A DNA stretch of 36,128 bases from Candidatus Giovannonibacteria bacterium. GTDB lineage: Bacteria > Patescibacteriota > Minisyncoccia > JACPKW01 > UBA11713. A program made the position numbers and the translations under genes. Under the pieces are notes generated by a model, which made no database searches, was not told the origin of the DNA, and worked only from the letters and a program-made list of their open reading frames with translations. Position 1 is the first letter of the stretch. Each line of letters starts with the position of its first letter. The stretch spans positions 1 through 36,128 of the forward strand of contig JAHFOJ010000007.1 of assembly GCA_023266875.1 (NCBI GenBank), given 5' to 3'. Positions 1 through 13,313 of the stretch are shown here, one piece after another.

Positions 1-209
1 TATCCTCCGTGCTTGTATTTCTTTTCTGTTAAATCGCGATGAAGCGCTATAATATTATCCATGAGATGCAATGAGAATTCCTGCACATCTCGCTTATTTC
101 TTTTTCCGTTCAATAATTCCTTCCAAGCTAAAAGCAGATTTTCAATAGAAATAATCTCTTCAAAACTATGAGTGAATTGAATTCTTCCTTTAAGCCCCCC
201 CCCAATCAA
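1..209 (-). CDS. DGR-type reverse transcriptase, N-terminal fragment (gene continues beyond left edge)
   Basis: Minus-strand frame reads ...GGGLKGRIQFTHSFEEIISIENLLLAWKEFLNGKRNKRDVQEFSLHLMDNIIALHRDLTEKKYKHGGY with no stop up to position 1; resembles the conserved N-terminus of DGR/group II-like RTs (IENLLLAWKEF...LTEKKYKHGGY). Start uncertain: no in-frame ATG, best candidate TTG at 209. Not in the ORF list because it is truncated. Confidence 0.82.
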   Translation of the reverse strand, partial: MIGGGLKGRIQFTHSFEEIISIENLLLAWKELLNGKRNKRDVQEFSLHLMDNIIALHRDLTEKKYKHGG

Positions 210-575
210 TTTTTGCCCATCATTGGGCGATTTGTTGCGGTTTATAGATTGTGGCATGGATATTTAGATCATATCTCGAAAAAATCTAGGTATACGCTAG
301 GCGCAAAGATTGATTCGTATTTTCTTGAAGCATTAGAAAATATGTTTATCGCAAGTTATCTTCCAAAAGAACAAAAACTTCCTTGTCTTCAAAAAGCAAC
401 GACCAAACTAGACCTTCTTAAATTCTTTTTGCAGATTTCTTGGGAAATTAAAGCGATAGATACAAAAAAGTATATCGCGCTTTCCGGCGAGTTAAACGAA
501 ATTGGGAGGATGCTGGGAGGCTGGCAACGCGGGATTGTTTCAAAAGAAAACTCCGCCAAAAGAGGCGGAGAATGA
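168..575 (+). CDS. avd: Avd-like four-helix bundle protein, DGR accessory variability determinant
   Basis: 135 aa; KKSRYTLGAKIDSYFLEALENMFIASYLPKEQKLPCLQKATTKLDLLKFFLQISWEIKAIDTKKYIALSGELNEIGRMLGGWQRG is the typical bAvd/four-helix bundle pattern; adjacent to RT fragment and TR. Confidence 0.85.
   Translation: MSELNSSFKPPPNQFLPIIGRFVAVYRLWHGYLDHISKKSRYTLGAKIDSYFLEALENMFIASYLPKEQKLPCLQKATTKLDLLKFFLQISWEIKAIDTKKYIALSGELNEIGRMLGGWQRGIVSKENSAKRGGE
551..570 (-). terminator. Hairpin CTCCGCC-N6-GGCGGAG followed on the minus strand by TTTTCTTTT; candidate terminator of the TR transcript
   Basis: Perfect 7-bp stem; minus-strand reading CTCCGCCTCTTTTGGCGGAGTTTTCTTTTG. Lies inside the 3' end of avd, 11 nt past the TR. 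Confidence 0.5.
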
Positions 576-581
576 AGAGAG

Positions 582-709
582 TTTCGTGGACGGACGAGGC
601 GATCATTCGAATTGAAGTCATTCTCGAGCCAATTGAAGTTCAGGTTCCAGCGCTTGCCATTGAAGTTGAGGTAAGCAACGTTGCGCCTGCCATTCGCATC
701 CTCCCAGAT
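582..709 (-). repeat. DGR template repeat (TR)
   Basis: 128 bp aligned without gaps to 1084-1211 (offset 502). All 25 mismatches fall at TR adenines on the minus strand. TR reads WEDANGRRNVAYLNFNGKRWNLNFNWLENDFNSNDRLVRPR, rich in AAY codons. Confidence 0.95.
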
Positions 710-824
710 AAACGTACGAGATATCATCTTAATCACCGCCCCTTGAATGCTCTCAGGGCTGAATATTATTTGGGGCATCAAAGCCCGCCAATATCTCGCA
801 CCAAGTATCTTCATTTTTGAAGTT

Positions 825-844
825 CCTGCCTGCCGTCAGGCAGG
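825..844. repeat. Perfect 8-bp stem, 4-nt loop hairpin CCTGCCTG-CCGT-CAGGCAGG
   Basis: Read directly from sequence; lies within the proposed TR transcript leader. Confidence 0.75.
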
Positions 845-937
845 TCTGCATGCACCACTCTACCCTAAGCCATAGCCGAAGATATTCTCGATGCATGGAT
901 ACTGGTTTCGGCCGCGGGAAGCCTTGACCGCCCGCAG

Positions 938-966
938 ATTCGCCTACTGCCAAGATAATTATACCA
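938..966 (-). promoter_or_regulatory. Candidate promoter of TR RNA: extended -10 TTGGTATAAT followed by GGCAGTAGGCGAA
   Basis: Minus strand TTGCTTGGTATAATTATCTTGGCAGTAGGCGAA; TGnTATAAT extended -10 with TATAAT at 963-958. Confidence 0.5.
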
Positions 967-967
967 A

Positions 968-1005
968 GCAAAAAGCTCCCGGCATATCGCTATGCGCGGG
1001 AGCTT
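968..1005 (-). terminator. Rho-independent terminator of the DGR target gene
   Basis: AAGCTCCCG-GCATA-TCGC-TATGC-(G)-CGGGAGCTT hairpin (14 bp with one bulge) followed on minus strand by a T run. Confidence 0.8.
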
Positions 1006-1036
1006 AGAGTTTTCAGCTTCAAAAACAAAGTTCAAA

Positions 1037-1071
1037 GAATCCAAGGGCTGAAGCCGAGAGCCCAAGGATTC
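1037..1071 (-). other. Imperfect hairpin immediately downstream of VR
   Basis: GAATCC-aa-GGGCT-(9 nt)-AGCCC-aa-GGATTC; 11 paired bases with a 2x2 internal loop, about 12 nt past the VR 3' end. Confidence 0.6.
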
Positions 1072-1076
1072 AAGGT

Positions 1077-1631
1077 CTAAACCTTGCGCGGACGGACGAG
1101 GCGAACAACCGAAAGGAAGCCACCCCCGAGCCAATAGAAGAACAGGAGCCAGCGCTCGCCAAAGAAGTAGAGGTAAGCAACGCTGCGCCTGCCAAACGCA
1201 TCCCCCCAGACTGTTCCAGTAAAAACCAAGTAAAACGGTCTGAATTCTGCAGGGATTTCACTTTCGTGCTCCAACAACCATTCGGCATCTTCTTGGCCGT
1301 AGTTGGTGTTGAGCTCGAGGCGAGACCGGCGCACTAATTCCTCGCCGCGGATTGAACTCTCGCCACTTTTGAGAAATGGCACGAGCTCAAGATCAGAAAC
1401 CGAAGTAAGGCCGCGCGGAACATGCTCGAGAAGTTTCCAGCCGTTCTTCCGCTTATCGTATTTAAAAACTGCCGCTCCTCGGTTAATTATCGGCTGAACT
1501 GCGTGCGCGATCTCTTCCGGATCAAGAGATCCCTCTCGAACGCGCCGAAACCAGTCGTTTTGCTGGCGTGCAAATTTGCCCAGCTTTCTGTCTAATTCAT
1601 CTTGTTCGTCCGCGACAATTTGTGTTGTCAT
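1077..1631 (-). CDS. DGR target (variable) protein with C-terminal VR
   Basis: 184 aa; C-terminus WGDAFGRRSVAYLYFFGERWLLFFYWLGGGFLSVVRLVRPRKV matches the translated TR at all non-A-dependent positions; SD-like AAAGGGG upstream of ATG. Confidence 0.9.
   Translation of the reverse strand: MTTQIVADEQDELDRKLGKFARQQNDWFRRVREGSLDPEEIAHAVQPIINRGAAVFKYDKRKNGWKLLEHVPRGLTSVSDLELVPFLKSGESSIRGEELVRRSRLELNTNYGQEDAEWLLEHESEIPAEFRPFYLVFTGTVWGDAFGRRSVAYLYFFGERWLLFFYWLGGGFLSVVRLVRPRKV
1084..1211 (-). repeat. DGR variable repeat (VR) in the 3' end of the target gene
   Basis: Gapless alignment to TR 582-709; mismatches only at TR adenines; 3' end contains an A-free GC-rich 14-mer TCGCCTCGTCCGTC, analogous to a (G/C)-rich IMH segment. 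Confidence 0.95.
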
Positions 1632-1695: not shown

Positions 1696-1715
1696 TTTAC
1701 AATCTTGATTGTAAA
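1696..1715. promoter_or_regulatory. Palindrome TTTACAATC-TT-GATTGTAAA upstream of the DGR target gene
   Basis: 9-bp arms perfect; lies between map stop and target gene start. Confidence 0.5.
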
Positions 1716-1721
1716 CGATCT

Positions 1722-2483
1722 TTAAATTTTTGTCAACACTTCTGGCCCATCTTTAGTAACCACCATTGTATGCTCAAAATGCGCTGCTGGTTTTCCGTCG
1801 CAAGTTTTCCACGTCCAGCCGTCTTTATCCAAAAAAACCTCGGGGCTTCCCAAGGTCACCATGGGTTCAATCGCTATCACCATATTTTCTTTAAGCTCTG
1901 TTCCCGTTCCCGCCCTCCCCCAATTCGGTATTTCCGGATCTTCGTGAACTTTTTTCCCCACACCATGCCCGACTAGTTCATGAACCACGCCAAAACCTGA
2001 TGCTTCAACAAATTTTTGAATCGCATGCCCAATATCGCCGACCCGCGCGCCAGCACGCACCTGCTTTATTCCAATTTCAAGCGATTTCCTCGTAATTTCA
2101 ATCAGCCGAAATAGTTTTTCATTAACTTTTCCAATCTCGATTGTTTCAGCCATGTCCGTAAATAGCCCTTTATATTTCATTCCGATATCGAGCCCGACAA
2201 TATCGCCATCCTTAAGTTCGCGCGCGGTTGGAATACCGTGAACCACTTCATCATTTATCGAAACGCAAAGCGATGCGGGATACGACCCACTGGAACCTCC
2301 AGCGCTATAGCCCTTGAACGATGGGACTCCTTTCGCGTCTAAAATTAGAGATTCCGCCAATTTGTCGAGTTCGATGGTTTTGATGCCGGCTCGCGCCTTC
2401 GCTTTGATTTCTTTCAAAATGGCGGCCAAGATCCGGCCGCCTTCGCGTAAATTTTTAAGCTCTTCAGTTGTTTTTATGGTCAT
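1722..2483 (-). CDS. map: Type I methionine aminopeptidase
   Basis: Family pattern GGSSGSYPASLCVSINDEVVHGIP, DIVGLDIGMKYKGLFTDMAET, VHELVGHGVGKKVHEDPEIPN, FEHTMVVT; next to adk. Confidence 0.95.
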   Translation of the reverse strand: MTIKTTEELKNLREGGRILAAILKEIKAKARAGIKTIELDKLAESLILDAKGVPSFKGYSAGGSSGSYPASLCVSINDEVVHGIPTARELKDGDIVGLDIGMKYKGLFTDMAETIEIGKVNEKLFRLIEITRKSLEIGIKQVRAGARVGDIGHAIQKFVEASGFGVVHELVGHGVGKKVHEDPEIPNWGRAGTGTELKENMVIAIEPMVTLGSPEVFLDKDGWTWKTCDGKPAAHFEHTMVVTKDGPEVLTKI

Positions 2484-11973: not shown

Positions 11974-12633
11974 TTATTTCTCTTCTTTCCTCCCAGTAGC
12001 TAATTCTTTTTCCGCACCCAAAGGCATAAATACAAATTTATTTCTCAAAAGATCAGATGAAGAAACATTTCTTACCTCTTTTACCTCGACATTCGGGATA
12101 TTGCGAAGCGAACGAAATGTTGATCGATCGGTTTTTAAAAGCAAAACCAAAATATTTGATTTTCTCGCCGCCTGCTCTAAACCTTCAAGCCGAGACACAC
12201 TTTTAATAAATTCCGCAGCATTTTTTGTTTTTCCGTCAGGAAATTCAATTGAATCAAAAAAAATAATTTCTCCTTCCCTCAATTTCTGGGAGAAAATTGT
12301 CAAAATAGCTTTACGGCGCGCTTTTTTGTTTATTTTTTTTAAATAATTTCGATCATTCGTAGGGCCGTGCGTCACGCCCCCGCCAATCCACAATGGCGAG
12401 CGGATCGAACCGTGTCTGGCGCGCCCGGTGCCTTTCTGCGCCCATGGCTTTTTTCCTCCGCCTCGCACCTCTGCCCGATCCTTAACTTTTGCCGTATTCG
12501 AGCGGCGATTTGACATTTCAGATTCTGAAACTTGGAAGACCAAAGATGGATTCCACGGCAAAGCGAAAACGCTCTCCTCCAATTTTAGAGTCCCGGTTCC
12601 TTTGCCTTTTTTGTCGTAAACCTTTACTTCCAT
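11974..12633 (-). CDS. rplD: 50S ribosomal protein L4
   Basis: GGGKKPWAQKGTGRARHGSIRSPLWIGGGVTHGP. Confidence 0.96.
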   Translation of the reverse strand: MEVKVYDKKGKGTGTLKLEESVFALPWNPSLVFQVSESEMSNRRSNTAKVKDRAEVRGGGKKPWAQKGTGRARHGSIRSPLWIGGGVTHGPTNDRNYLKKINKKARRKAILTIFSQKLREGEIIFFDSIEFPDGKTKNAAEFIKSVSRLEGLEQAARKSNILVLLLKTDRSTFRSLRNIPNVEVKEVRNVSSSDLLRNKFVFMPLGAEKELATGRKEEK

Positions 12634-12635
12634 AA

Positions 12636-13244
12636 TTAATTTGCGCTTTTGATCTCGATCAGGGCTCCGCGCGCTCCCGGAGTCGCCCCGCTTAAATAAA
12701 TAAGATTCTTCTCCGTCTCTATTTTTACAATTTTCAAATTTTTGACTGTTACATTTTCGCCTCCCATGCGCCCAGCCATTCGCTTGCCTTTAAGCACGCG
12801 CTGCGGCCACGTAGCGCCGATCGATCCTGGCGCGCGTTCATTATGCTTTTGGCCGTGAGTCCTCGGACCCCCAGCGAAATTATGACGCTTGACTACTCCC
12901 TGAAATCCCTTGCCTTTGGAGACGCCCCGAACCACAACTTTTTCGCCTTCCTTGAAATTTGAGAGGTCCATTTTATCGCCGACATTTTTGGGATTTTTCA
13001 TTCTAAATTCGCGCGAAACACTGAAATTTCCAAGCCCTTTAAAGTGCCCTCTCTGTGGCTTTTTTATATTTTTAATTTTTTTCTCCCCCGATCCAACCTG
13101 AACCGCCTCATATCCGTCCTTCTCTTTGGTCTTAACTTGCAAAACGACCACAGGTCGAACCCGAAGAACCGTCGCCGGAATGATGTCCCCTTCTTCATTA
13201 AAAATCTGCGTCATCTGAATTTTTTCTGCAAGCATGTATGCCAT
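12636..13244 (-). CDS. rplC: 50S ribosomal protein L3
   Basis: GVSKGKGFQGVVKRHNFAGGPRTHGQKHNERAPGSIGATWPQRVLKGKRMAGRMG. Confidence 0.97.
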   Translation of the reverse strand: MAYMLAEKIQMTQIFNEEGDIIPATVLRVRPVVVLQVKTKEKDGYEAVQVGSGEKKIKNIKKPQRGHFKGLGNFSVSREFRMKNPKNVGDKMDLSNFKEGEKVVVRGVSKGKGFQGVVKRHNFAGGPRTHGQKHNERAPGSIGATWPQRVLKGKRMAGRMGGENVTVKNLKIVKIETEKNLIYLSGATPGARGALIEIKSAN

Positions 13245-13283
13245 GATAATTTTTATAAAAATTATATAATCTTTGTCTCTTAT

Positions 13284-13313
13284 AAAAAATCCCGGAGATT
13301 ACCGGAATTTTTT
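13284..13313 (-). terminator. Hairpin with T6 tail between rpsJ and rplC (attenuator or terminator candidate)
   Basis: AAAAAAT-CCGG-loop-CCGG-ATTTTTT symmetric structure in the intergenic gap. Confidence 0.55.

Follow-up and report, generated by a model that had tools for sequence, protein, structure and literature searches.

Genes and features of the locus

The window, meaning the whole stretch of 36,128 nucleotides that was analysed, makes up the entire contig C24; the assembly to which it belongs totals 683,660 bp and is 91.5% complete. The accessory variability determinant gene avd lies on the plus strand (168..575, 135 aa), antisense to the reverse transcriptase (RT), the template repeat (TR) and the target gene, and it is in frame at the present length of the repeat close to its start. 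The Avd protein matched the bAvd family PF22296 (E 3.5e-12, 47.2 bits, cut-off 40) and, below the cut-off of 80, NF033474 (E 8e-20, 71 bits), while the search of the Avd profile against solved sequences gave no match. The structural model predicted a four-helix bundle with residues 1-16 disordered. The repeat itself is a C9 simple-sequence tract at 195..203 (G9 on the RT strand), which encodes Pro10-Pro12 of Avd and, in the extended RT frame, Gly-Gly-Gly. It is the sole G/C run of 8 or more in the window, and this non-triplet repeat sits past the avd ATG at 168 and ahead of the Avd domain.

The N-terminal fragment of a reverse transcriptase of the diversity-generating retroelement (DGR) type occupies 3..257 on the minus strand and is truncated at the contig end, so that only residues 1-62 are present; these matched the DGR-type RT family profile with an E value of 1e-24. 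The full-length relatives carry LGNLTSQ together with YADD or YPDD, the DGR motifs being (I/V/L)GxxxSQ and YxDD, and matched 8ub7 at 1e-46. This reverse transcriptase is the best solved match of the RT profile and belongs to what we take to be the DGR complex of Bordetella phage BPP-1. The search of the genome with PF00078 detected no RT. The RT family alignment placed the N-terminus in the window and the C-terminus at the start of a second contig, C16. In C16 (positions 1-188, L166) the first 54 bp are identical to window positions 39-92 in the N-terminal part of RT, after which the sequence jumps out of frame into the RT C-terminus (residues 279-323). This junction represents either an internal-deletion variant of RT within the population or a misassembly; it is probably the reason why the contig breaks at the window start. 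An IS481-like transposase gene was observed at the opposite contig end (35212-36126).

The target (variable) protein gene lies at 1077..1631 on the minus strand (184 aa) with the variable repeat (VR) at its 3' end, and its homologues adjoin DGRs in other Patescibacteria. The model of the C-terminal half gave weak matches to C-type-lectin-like folds (E 0.3 or worse), and nothing significant was returned by the structure search with the target protein. A related target protein was found in 24 of 191 sampled genomes, the source genome counted, with mostly low similarity. A promoter-like TTGACA-17-TACAAT of the target gene is present at 1708..1736 on the minus strand by consensus match only. The 13-base leader GGCAGTAGGCGAA occurs ahead of the TR (939-951) and again in the leader of the target gene (1666-1678); its candidacy as a transcription-start element was dropped, as it is absent from all other loci.

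Template and variable repeats

The TR (582..709, minus strand) and the VR (1084..1211, minus strand), which forms the final ~43 codons of the target gene, were aligned by pairwise recomputation and by an independent scan. Both gave 128 bp at an offset of 502 with zero gaps. The changed positions comprise 25 of the 34 minus-strand adenines of the TR and 0 of the 94 other bases; viewed on the plus strand, all 25 mismatches fall at TR thymines. If 25 mismatches were placed at random, all of them would hit the 34 TR adenines with a probability of 2.1e-19. In the VR, the ten Asn codons of the TR have become F,S,Y,F,L,F,Y,G,L,V, and the identity breaks at both flanks, at 581/1083 and in the bases beyond 709/1211. 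A preliminary description of the window, made from sequence alone, had claimed each of these four features; the gapless alignment and the adenine-only divergence held exactly, and the ten replacements and the abrupt flanks held also. It had named proportional substitution at non-adenine positions as the outcome which would refute it, and none was seen when the alignment was run.

The alternative that the pair is an ordinary diverged duplication without retrohoming was considered. No support for it was found, and it is all but excluded by the placement of 25/25 differences at adenines (P about 2e-19), by the adjacent avd and RT, and by the same pattern in 121 of the 137 related loci described below. 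The preliminary description had also read the pair as a product of mutagenic retrohoming, and this reading is supported. The window cassette is thus regarded as a Patescibacterial DGR because the TR/VR divergence is adenine-only, the VR lies at the 3' end of the target reading frame, an Avd gene and a DGR-type RT N-terminus are found within 1.7 kb, and the arrangement is conserved in relatives; retrohoming in cells is inferred. The truncation of RT by the contig end, the antisense orientation of avd to everything else and the C9 at the avd start, here read as a conserved switch of the slippage type, had been missed.

A terminator-like hairpin followed by TTTTCTTTT (551..570, minus strand) was found by pattern match directly 3' of the TR. 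It is likely to mark the 3' end of the TR RNA, with the reservation that such patterns are overall no commoner than in shuffled sequences. As regards an IMH/stem-loop feature, the VR end is GC-rich, and a 6-bp hairpin, CAAGGT-TTAG-ACCTTG (1071..1086, minus strand), was read from the sequence at the VR end, spanning the stop codon. It may be a DGR stem-loop element, the function being inferred. The window TR has no further clear VR copy in the 683,660-bp genome, where only two other DNA matches, of 28 and 24 bp, occur. A TR-like sequence is present in G000:C7 at about 12149-13300 (L035 4150-5269), and its 3' end and terminator resemble those of the window TR. It lies next to what may be another target gene, with which it shows no A-only match, and is possibly an orphan or decayed second TR using the same RT.

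Conservation of the arrangement in related loci

The loci analysed with the window were 80 RT loci from the genome collection and 60 from a phylum-wide sample of 384 genomes, in 133 of which the RT profile was matched. The comparison set comprised 137 non-duplicate RT loci having avd nearby. The homologues with named records belong to Patescibacteria or unclassified bins, save one bin labelled Spirochaetia. The avd gene is antisense to RT in 137/137 loci. An A-only TR/VR pair was detected in 121 of them by a scan in which the differences could be A-only or T-only and on either strand, and the A was always on the RT strand. The TR is upstream of RT in these 121 pairs and near the avd 3' end in nearly all. 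Among the viral-contig loci (n=28), the three most similar ones (L227-L229) carry an antisense avd, while the remaining loci with a detectable avd, which are more distant DGRs, have avd on the RT strand and no repeat (22/22). In one close relative, L036 (G009:C18), the target, VR, TR and avd are present with a repeat of only six G, and no RT was found on the contig.

A simple-sequence repeat, putatively hypermutable, near the avd start codon

Of the 137 loci, 114 carry a repeat at the avd start, as do 40 of the 59 DGR loci of the phylum-wide part of the sample. The repeat is C8-C14 in 97 loci, a CA, CT or GA dinucleotide tract in 13, CAAT x7 in one, AGGAC or ACAGG in two and a GCCAGCC heptamer in one. 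The unit lengths are hence 1, 2, 4, 5 and 7, and never multiples of three (3, 6, 9). In most loci this repeat is the lone G/C run of 7 or more within up to 11 kb. Counted on the RT tree, at least 22 changes of repeat unit and 13 switches between presence and absence are needed; therefore different repeats have repeatedly occupied the same place. Such turnover of repeat type is the pattern expected if slippage, and not a particular motif, were being selected. The tract length also differs between close pairs, with C11 against C10 at 89% nucleotide identity and C11 against C8 at 85%. In Avd the repeat is translated into part of a tail that is predicted to be disordered and precedes the first helix; in-frame changes of length are therefore predicted to do no harm.

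A role of the repeat as RT promoter or ribosome-binding feature was rejected as the main one, because the repeat stays beside the avd domain where RT starts ~120-140 nt away, and because of the frame evidence given below. In loci whose repeat falls within the RT 5' untranslated region, an effect on RT expression, in addition or instead, remains a possibility.

Reading frame of avd across the repeat

The position of the avd start was evaluated from the opposite strand. The avd start lies opposite RT codon 7, where His is written as CAT in 91 cases and as CAC in 1, versus 1009:697 (59% CAT) elsewhere in RT (p 7e-20). In 78 of 83 loci the frame of the avd ATG stays open as far as the repeat; the other two frames are closed in 65 and 62. 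The five closed-frame exceptions equal in number the loci with a moved avd start. Where the RT start is displaced (L069, L074, L092, L093, L065), avd has a separate ATG which is still upstream of the repeat. The CAT bias, the open frame and this separate ATG identify the ATG upstream of the repeat as the true avd start; among the 114 repeat loci, L225 uses GTG.

The ATG-started frame through the repeat joins avd in frame in 25 of the 114 loci (ON) and out of frame in 89 (OFF). The in-frame share is less than one third (p 0.01), and both the +1 and +2 frames occur among the out-of-frame loci (49 and 38). In the repeat-free loci the avd start is in frame in 23/23 (Fisher 4e-13 versus the repeat loci). 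On the RT tree the ON/OFF state changes about 21 times, which is near the maximum for about 25 ON loci. The dN/dS values of OFF/OFF avd pairs were 0.03-0.24 where computable, several pairs being saturated, and by these values the out-of-frame genes are under purifying selection. The avd core frame is full length in 86 of the 89 OFF loci, and the TR/VR pairs of these loci are no less clean than those of the ON loci, with 55% of A and 0.7% of other bases changed. These three observations indicate that the OFF loci are not dead.

Three other explanations of the frame data were considered. According to the first, the cassette is an ordinary, constitutively capable Patescibacterial DGR in which the repeat is incidental and Avd translation starts past it. 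In its favour, all DGR parts are conventional and an in-frame start shortly past the repeat exists as GTG or TTG in 44/114 loci and as ATG in 2. However, 68 of the 114 loci are without any such start, the ATG opposite RT codon 7 is under synonymous constraint with its frame open to the repeat, the repeat-free loci are always in frame and often from an ATG at the equivalent place, and units of 1, 2, 4, 5 and 7 bases arose convergently at one place. This explanation is considered unlikely; a weak start past the repeat could still leave some residual Avd.

According to the second, transcriptional slippage or ribosomal frameshifting at the repeat lets every cell make some Avd at any tract length. 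Slippage is known in general to occur at mononucleotide runs of 8-14, and such a process would account for the conservation of out-of-frame avd. However, units of 4, 5 and 7 bases (L187, L218, L219, L106) are ill-suited to slippage by polymerase or ribosome, both the +1 and +2 frames are found, and the repeat-free loci are plainly in frame, which leaves this explanation very unlikely. The third attributes the tract lengths to mistakes in assembly or sequencing, with avd in frame in all cells. Homopolymers are indeed error-prone and the assemblies are metagenomic, but the repeats themselves, the non-homopolymer ones included, are not errors, 89/114 out of frame is far too many, and units of 2-7 bases, which are less prone to miscounting, also occur out of frame. 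This explanation is rated as even less probable than the second. One limit of the data is that each species is represented by one assembly, without reads, and homopolymer lengths in a single assembly can be miscounted.

Joint framing of RT and Avd

In 29 loci, the window included, RT has no start codon from the repeat to its conserved domain, that is, RT also starts across the repeat. In this dual class, 27 loci have an ATG on the RT strand whose frame enters the repeat from the side away from the RT domain; in 26 of these, avd and RT are open in one and the same repeat phase (p 7e-12). In the control class, where RT starts after the repeat, the phases of avd and RT agree in 11/29 loci, which is at chance. 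In the window, both the RT ATG at 257 and an alternative TTG at about 209 lie across the repeat from the RT domain, and the C9 places avd and RT both in frame. Against this, the window RT is incomplete, and it might possibly start at TTG codons near the repeat. The likely, bolder reading is that a single hypermutable repeat in a head-to-head coding overlap switches the RT and Avd frames in the same phase, so that the whole retroelement would be stochastically ON or OFF; the class-wide form would switch Avd alone. The switching is inferred.

Proposed phase variation of the retroelement

The overall reading is a Patescibacterial DGR with phase-variable activity, in which a slippage switch would act on Avd and, in the window, on Avd and RT. 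It is held to be very likely (probability about 0.86), and neither switching nor expression was observed. In this model, an adenine-error-prone RT together with Avd would copy the TR RNA, and the mutated cDNA would replace the VR of the target gene; for this copying step, the TR/VR pattern is shown here and the mechanism is known from BPP-1. The avd start codon is separated from the functional domain by the hypermutable repeat, with avd antisense to RT. Replication slippage by a non-multiple of three would put Avd out of frame, and retrohoming would stop until a back-slip. The loss of Avd abolishes a reconstituted DGR (PMC12875486), and the requirement of Avd for retrohoming is also supported by PMC10053308. 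In the subclass to which the window belongs, the RT frame also crosses this repeat, on the other strand, and one tract would switch both proteins together. The assembled window, with its C9 and both genes in frame, would represent the cassette in the ON state.

Comparison with known systems

The cassette resembles the BPP-1 DGR (mtd, avd, TR, brt) in the TR/VR adenine mutagenesis, the four-helix bundle of Avd and the DGR RT. It differs in that BPP-1 avd lies upstream of TR and RT, shares their strand and has no repeat, whereas avd of the window is antisense, is flanked by TR and RT and has a repeat between its start codon and its domain. The host group and RT type are those of DGR clade 2 of Patescibacteria/CPR (Roux et al. 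2021, PMC8144416), the placement of the window in this clade being inferred. Clade 2 is restricted to Patescibacteria and its activity is significantly lower than average (PMC8144416). In the text of that study that was searched, no switch, repeat or avd orientation is mentioned. A population which is mostly OFF would explain this low activity, and the model, if true, offers a concrete cause for the low values measured for Patescibacterial DGRs. The literature searched held no account of DGR phase variation, of a repeat switch or of an antisense avd, and the search left out key papers on the anatomy of CPR DGRs. Relative to that literature, the proposed repeat switch at the avd start is new, while the DGR itself is of an already known kind.

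Little is known about how DGR hypermutation is restrained in cells. If the model is true, one mutator is governed by a second, with most cells OFF and keeping a working target and a few cells ON and diversifying it. By the share of RT-profile genomes (133/384) and of repeat loci (40/59) in the phylum-wide sample, the putative switch is present in a large part of the phylum.

The contingency loci of Neisseria, Haemophilus and Campylobacter (poly-G or tetranucleotide) are alike in having a non-triplet repeat near the coding 5' end and in the mixture of ON and OFF among relatives. Those loci switch surface or restriction genes, whereas here a mutagenic retroelement would be switched, and in the dual class, unlike in those loci, a single repeat sets the frame of two genes, one on each strand. 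In the divergent promoter of Haemophilus hifA/hifB, a (TA)n repeat controls two divergent genes through promoter spacing. That system also has one repeat for two divergent genes, but the repeat of the window lies in overlapping coding sequence and would act on both frames. If true, a two-strand switch with one repeat is an uncommon genetic design. As a separate observation, a second G10 run is present at position 2294 of locus L114, away from the avd junction, and possibly belongs to another phase-variable gene.
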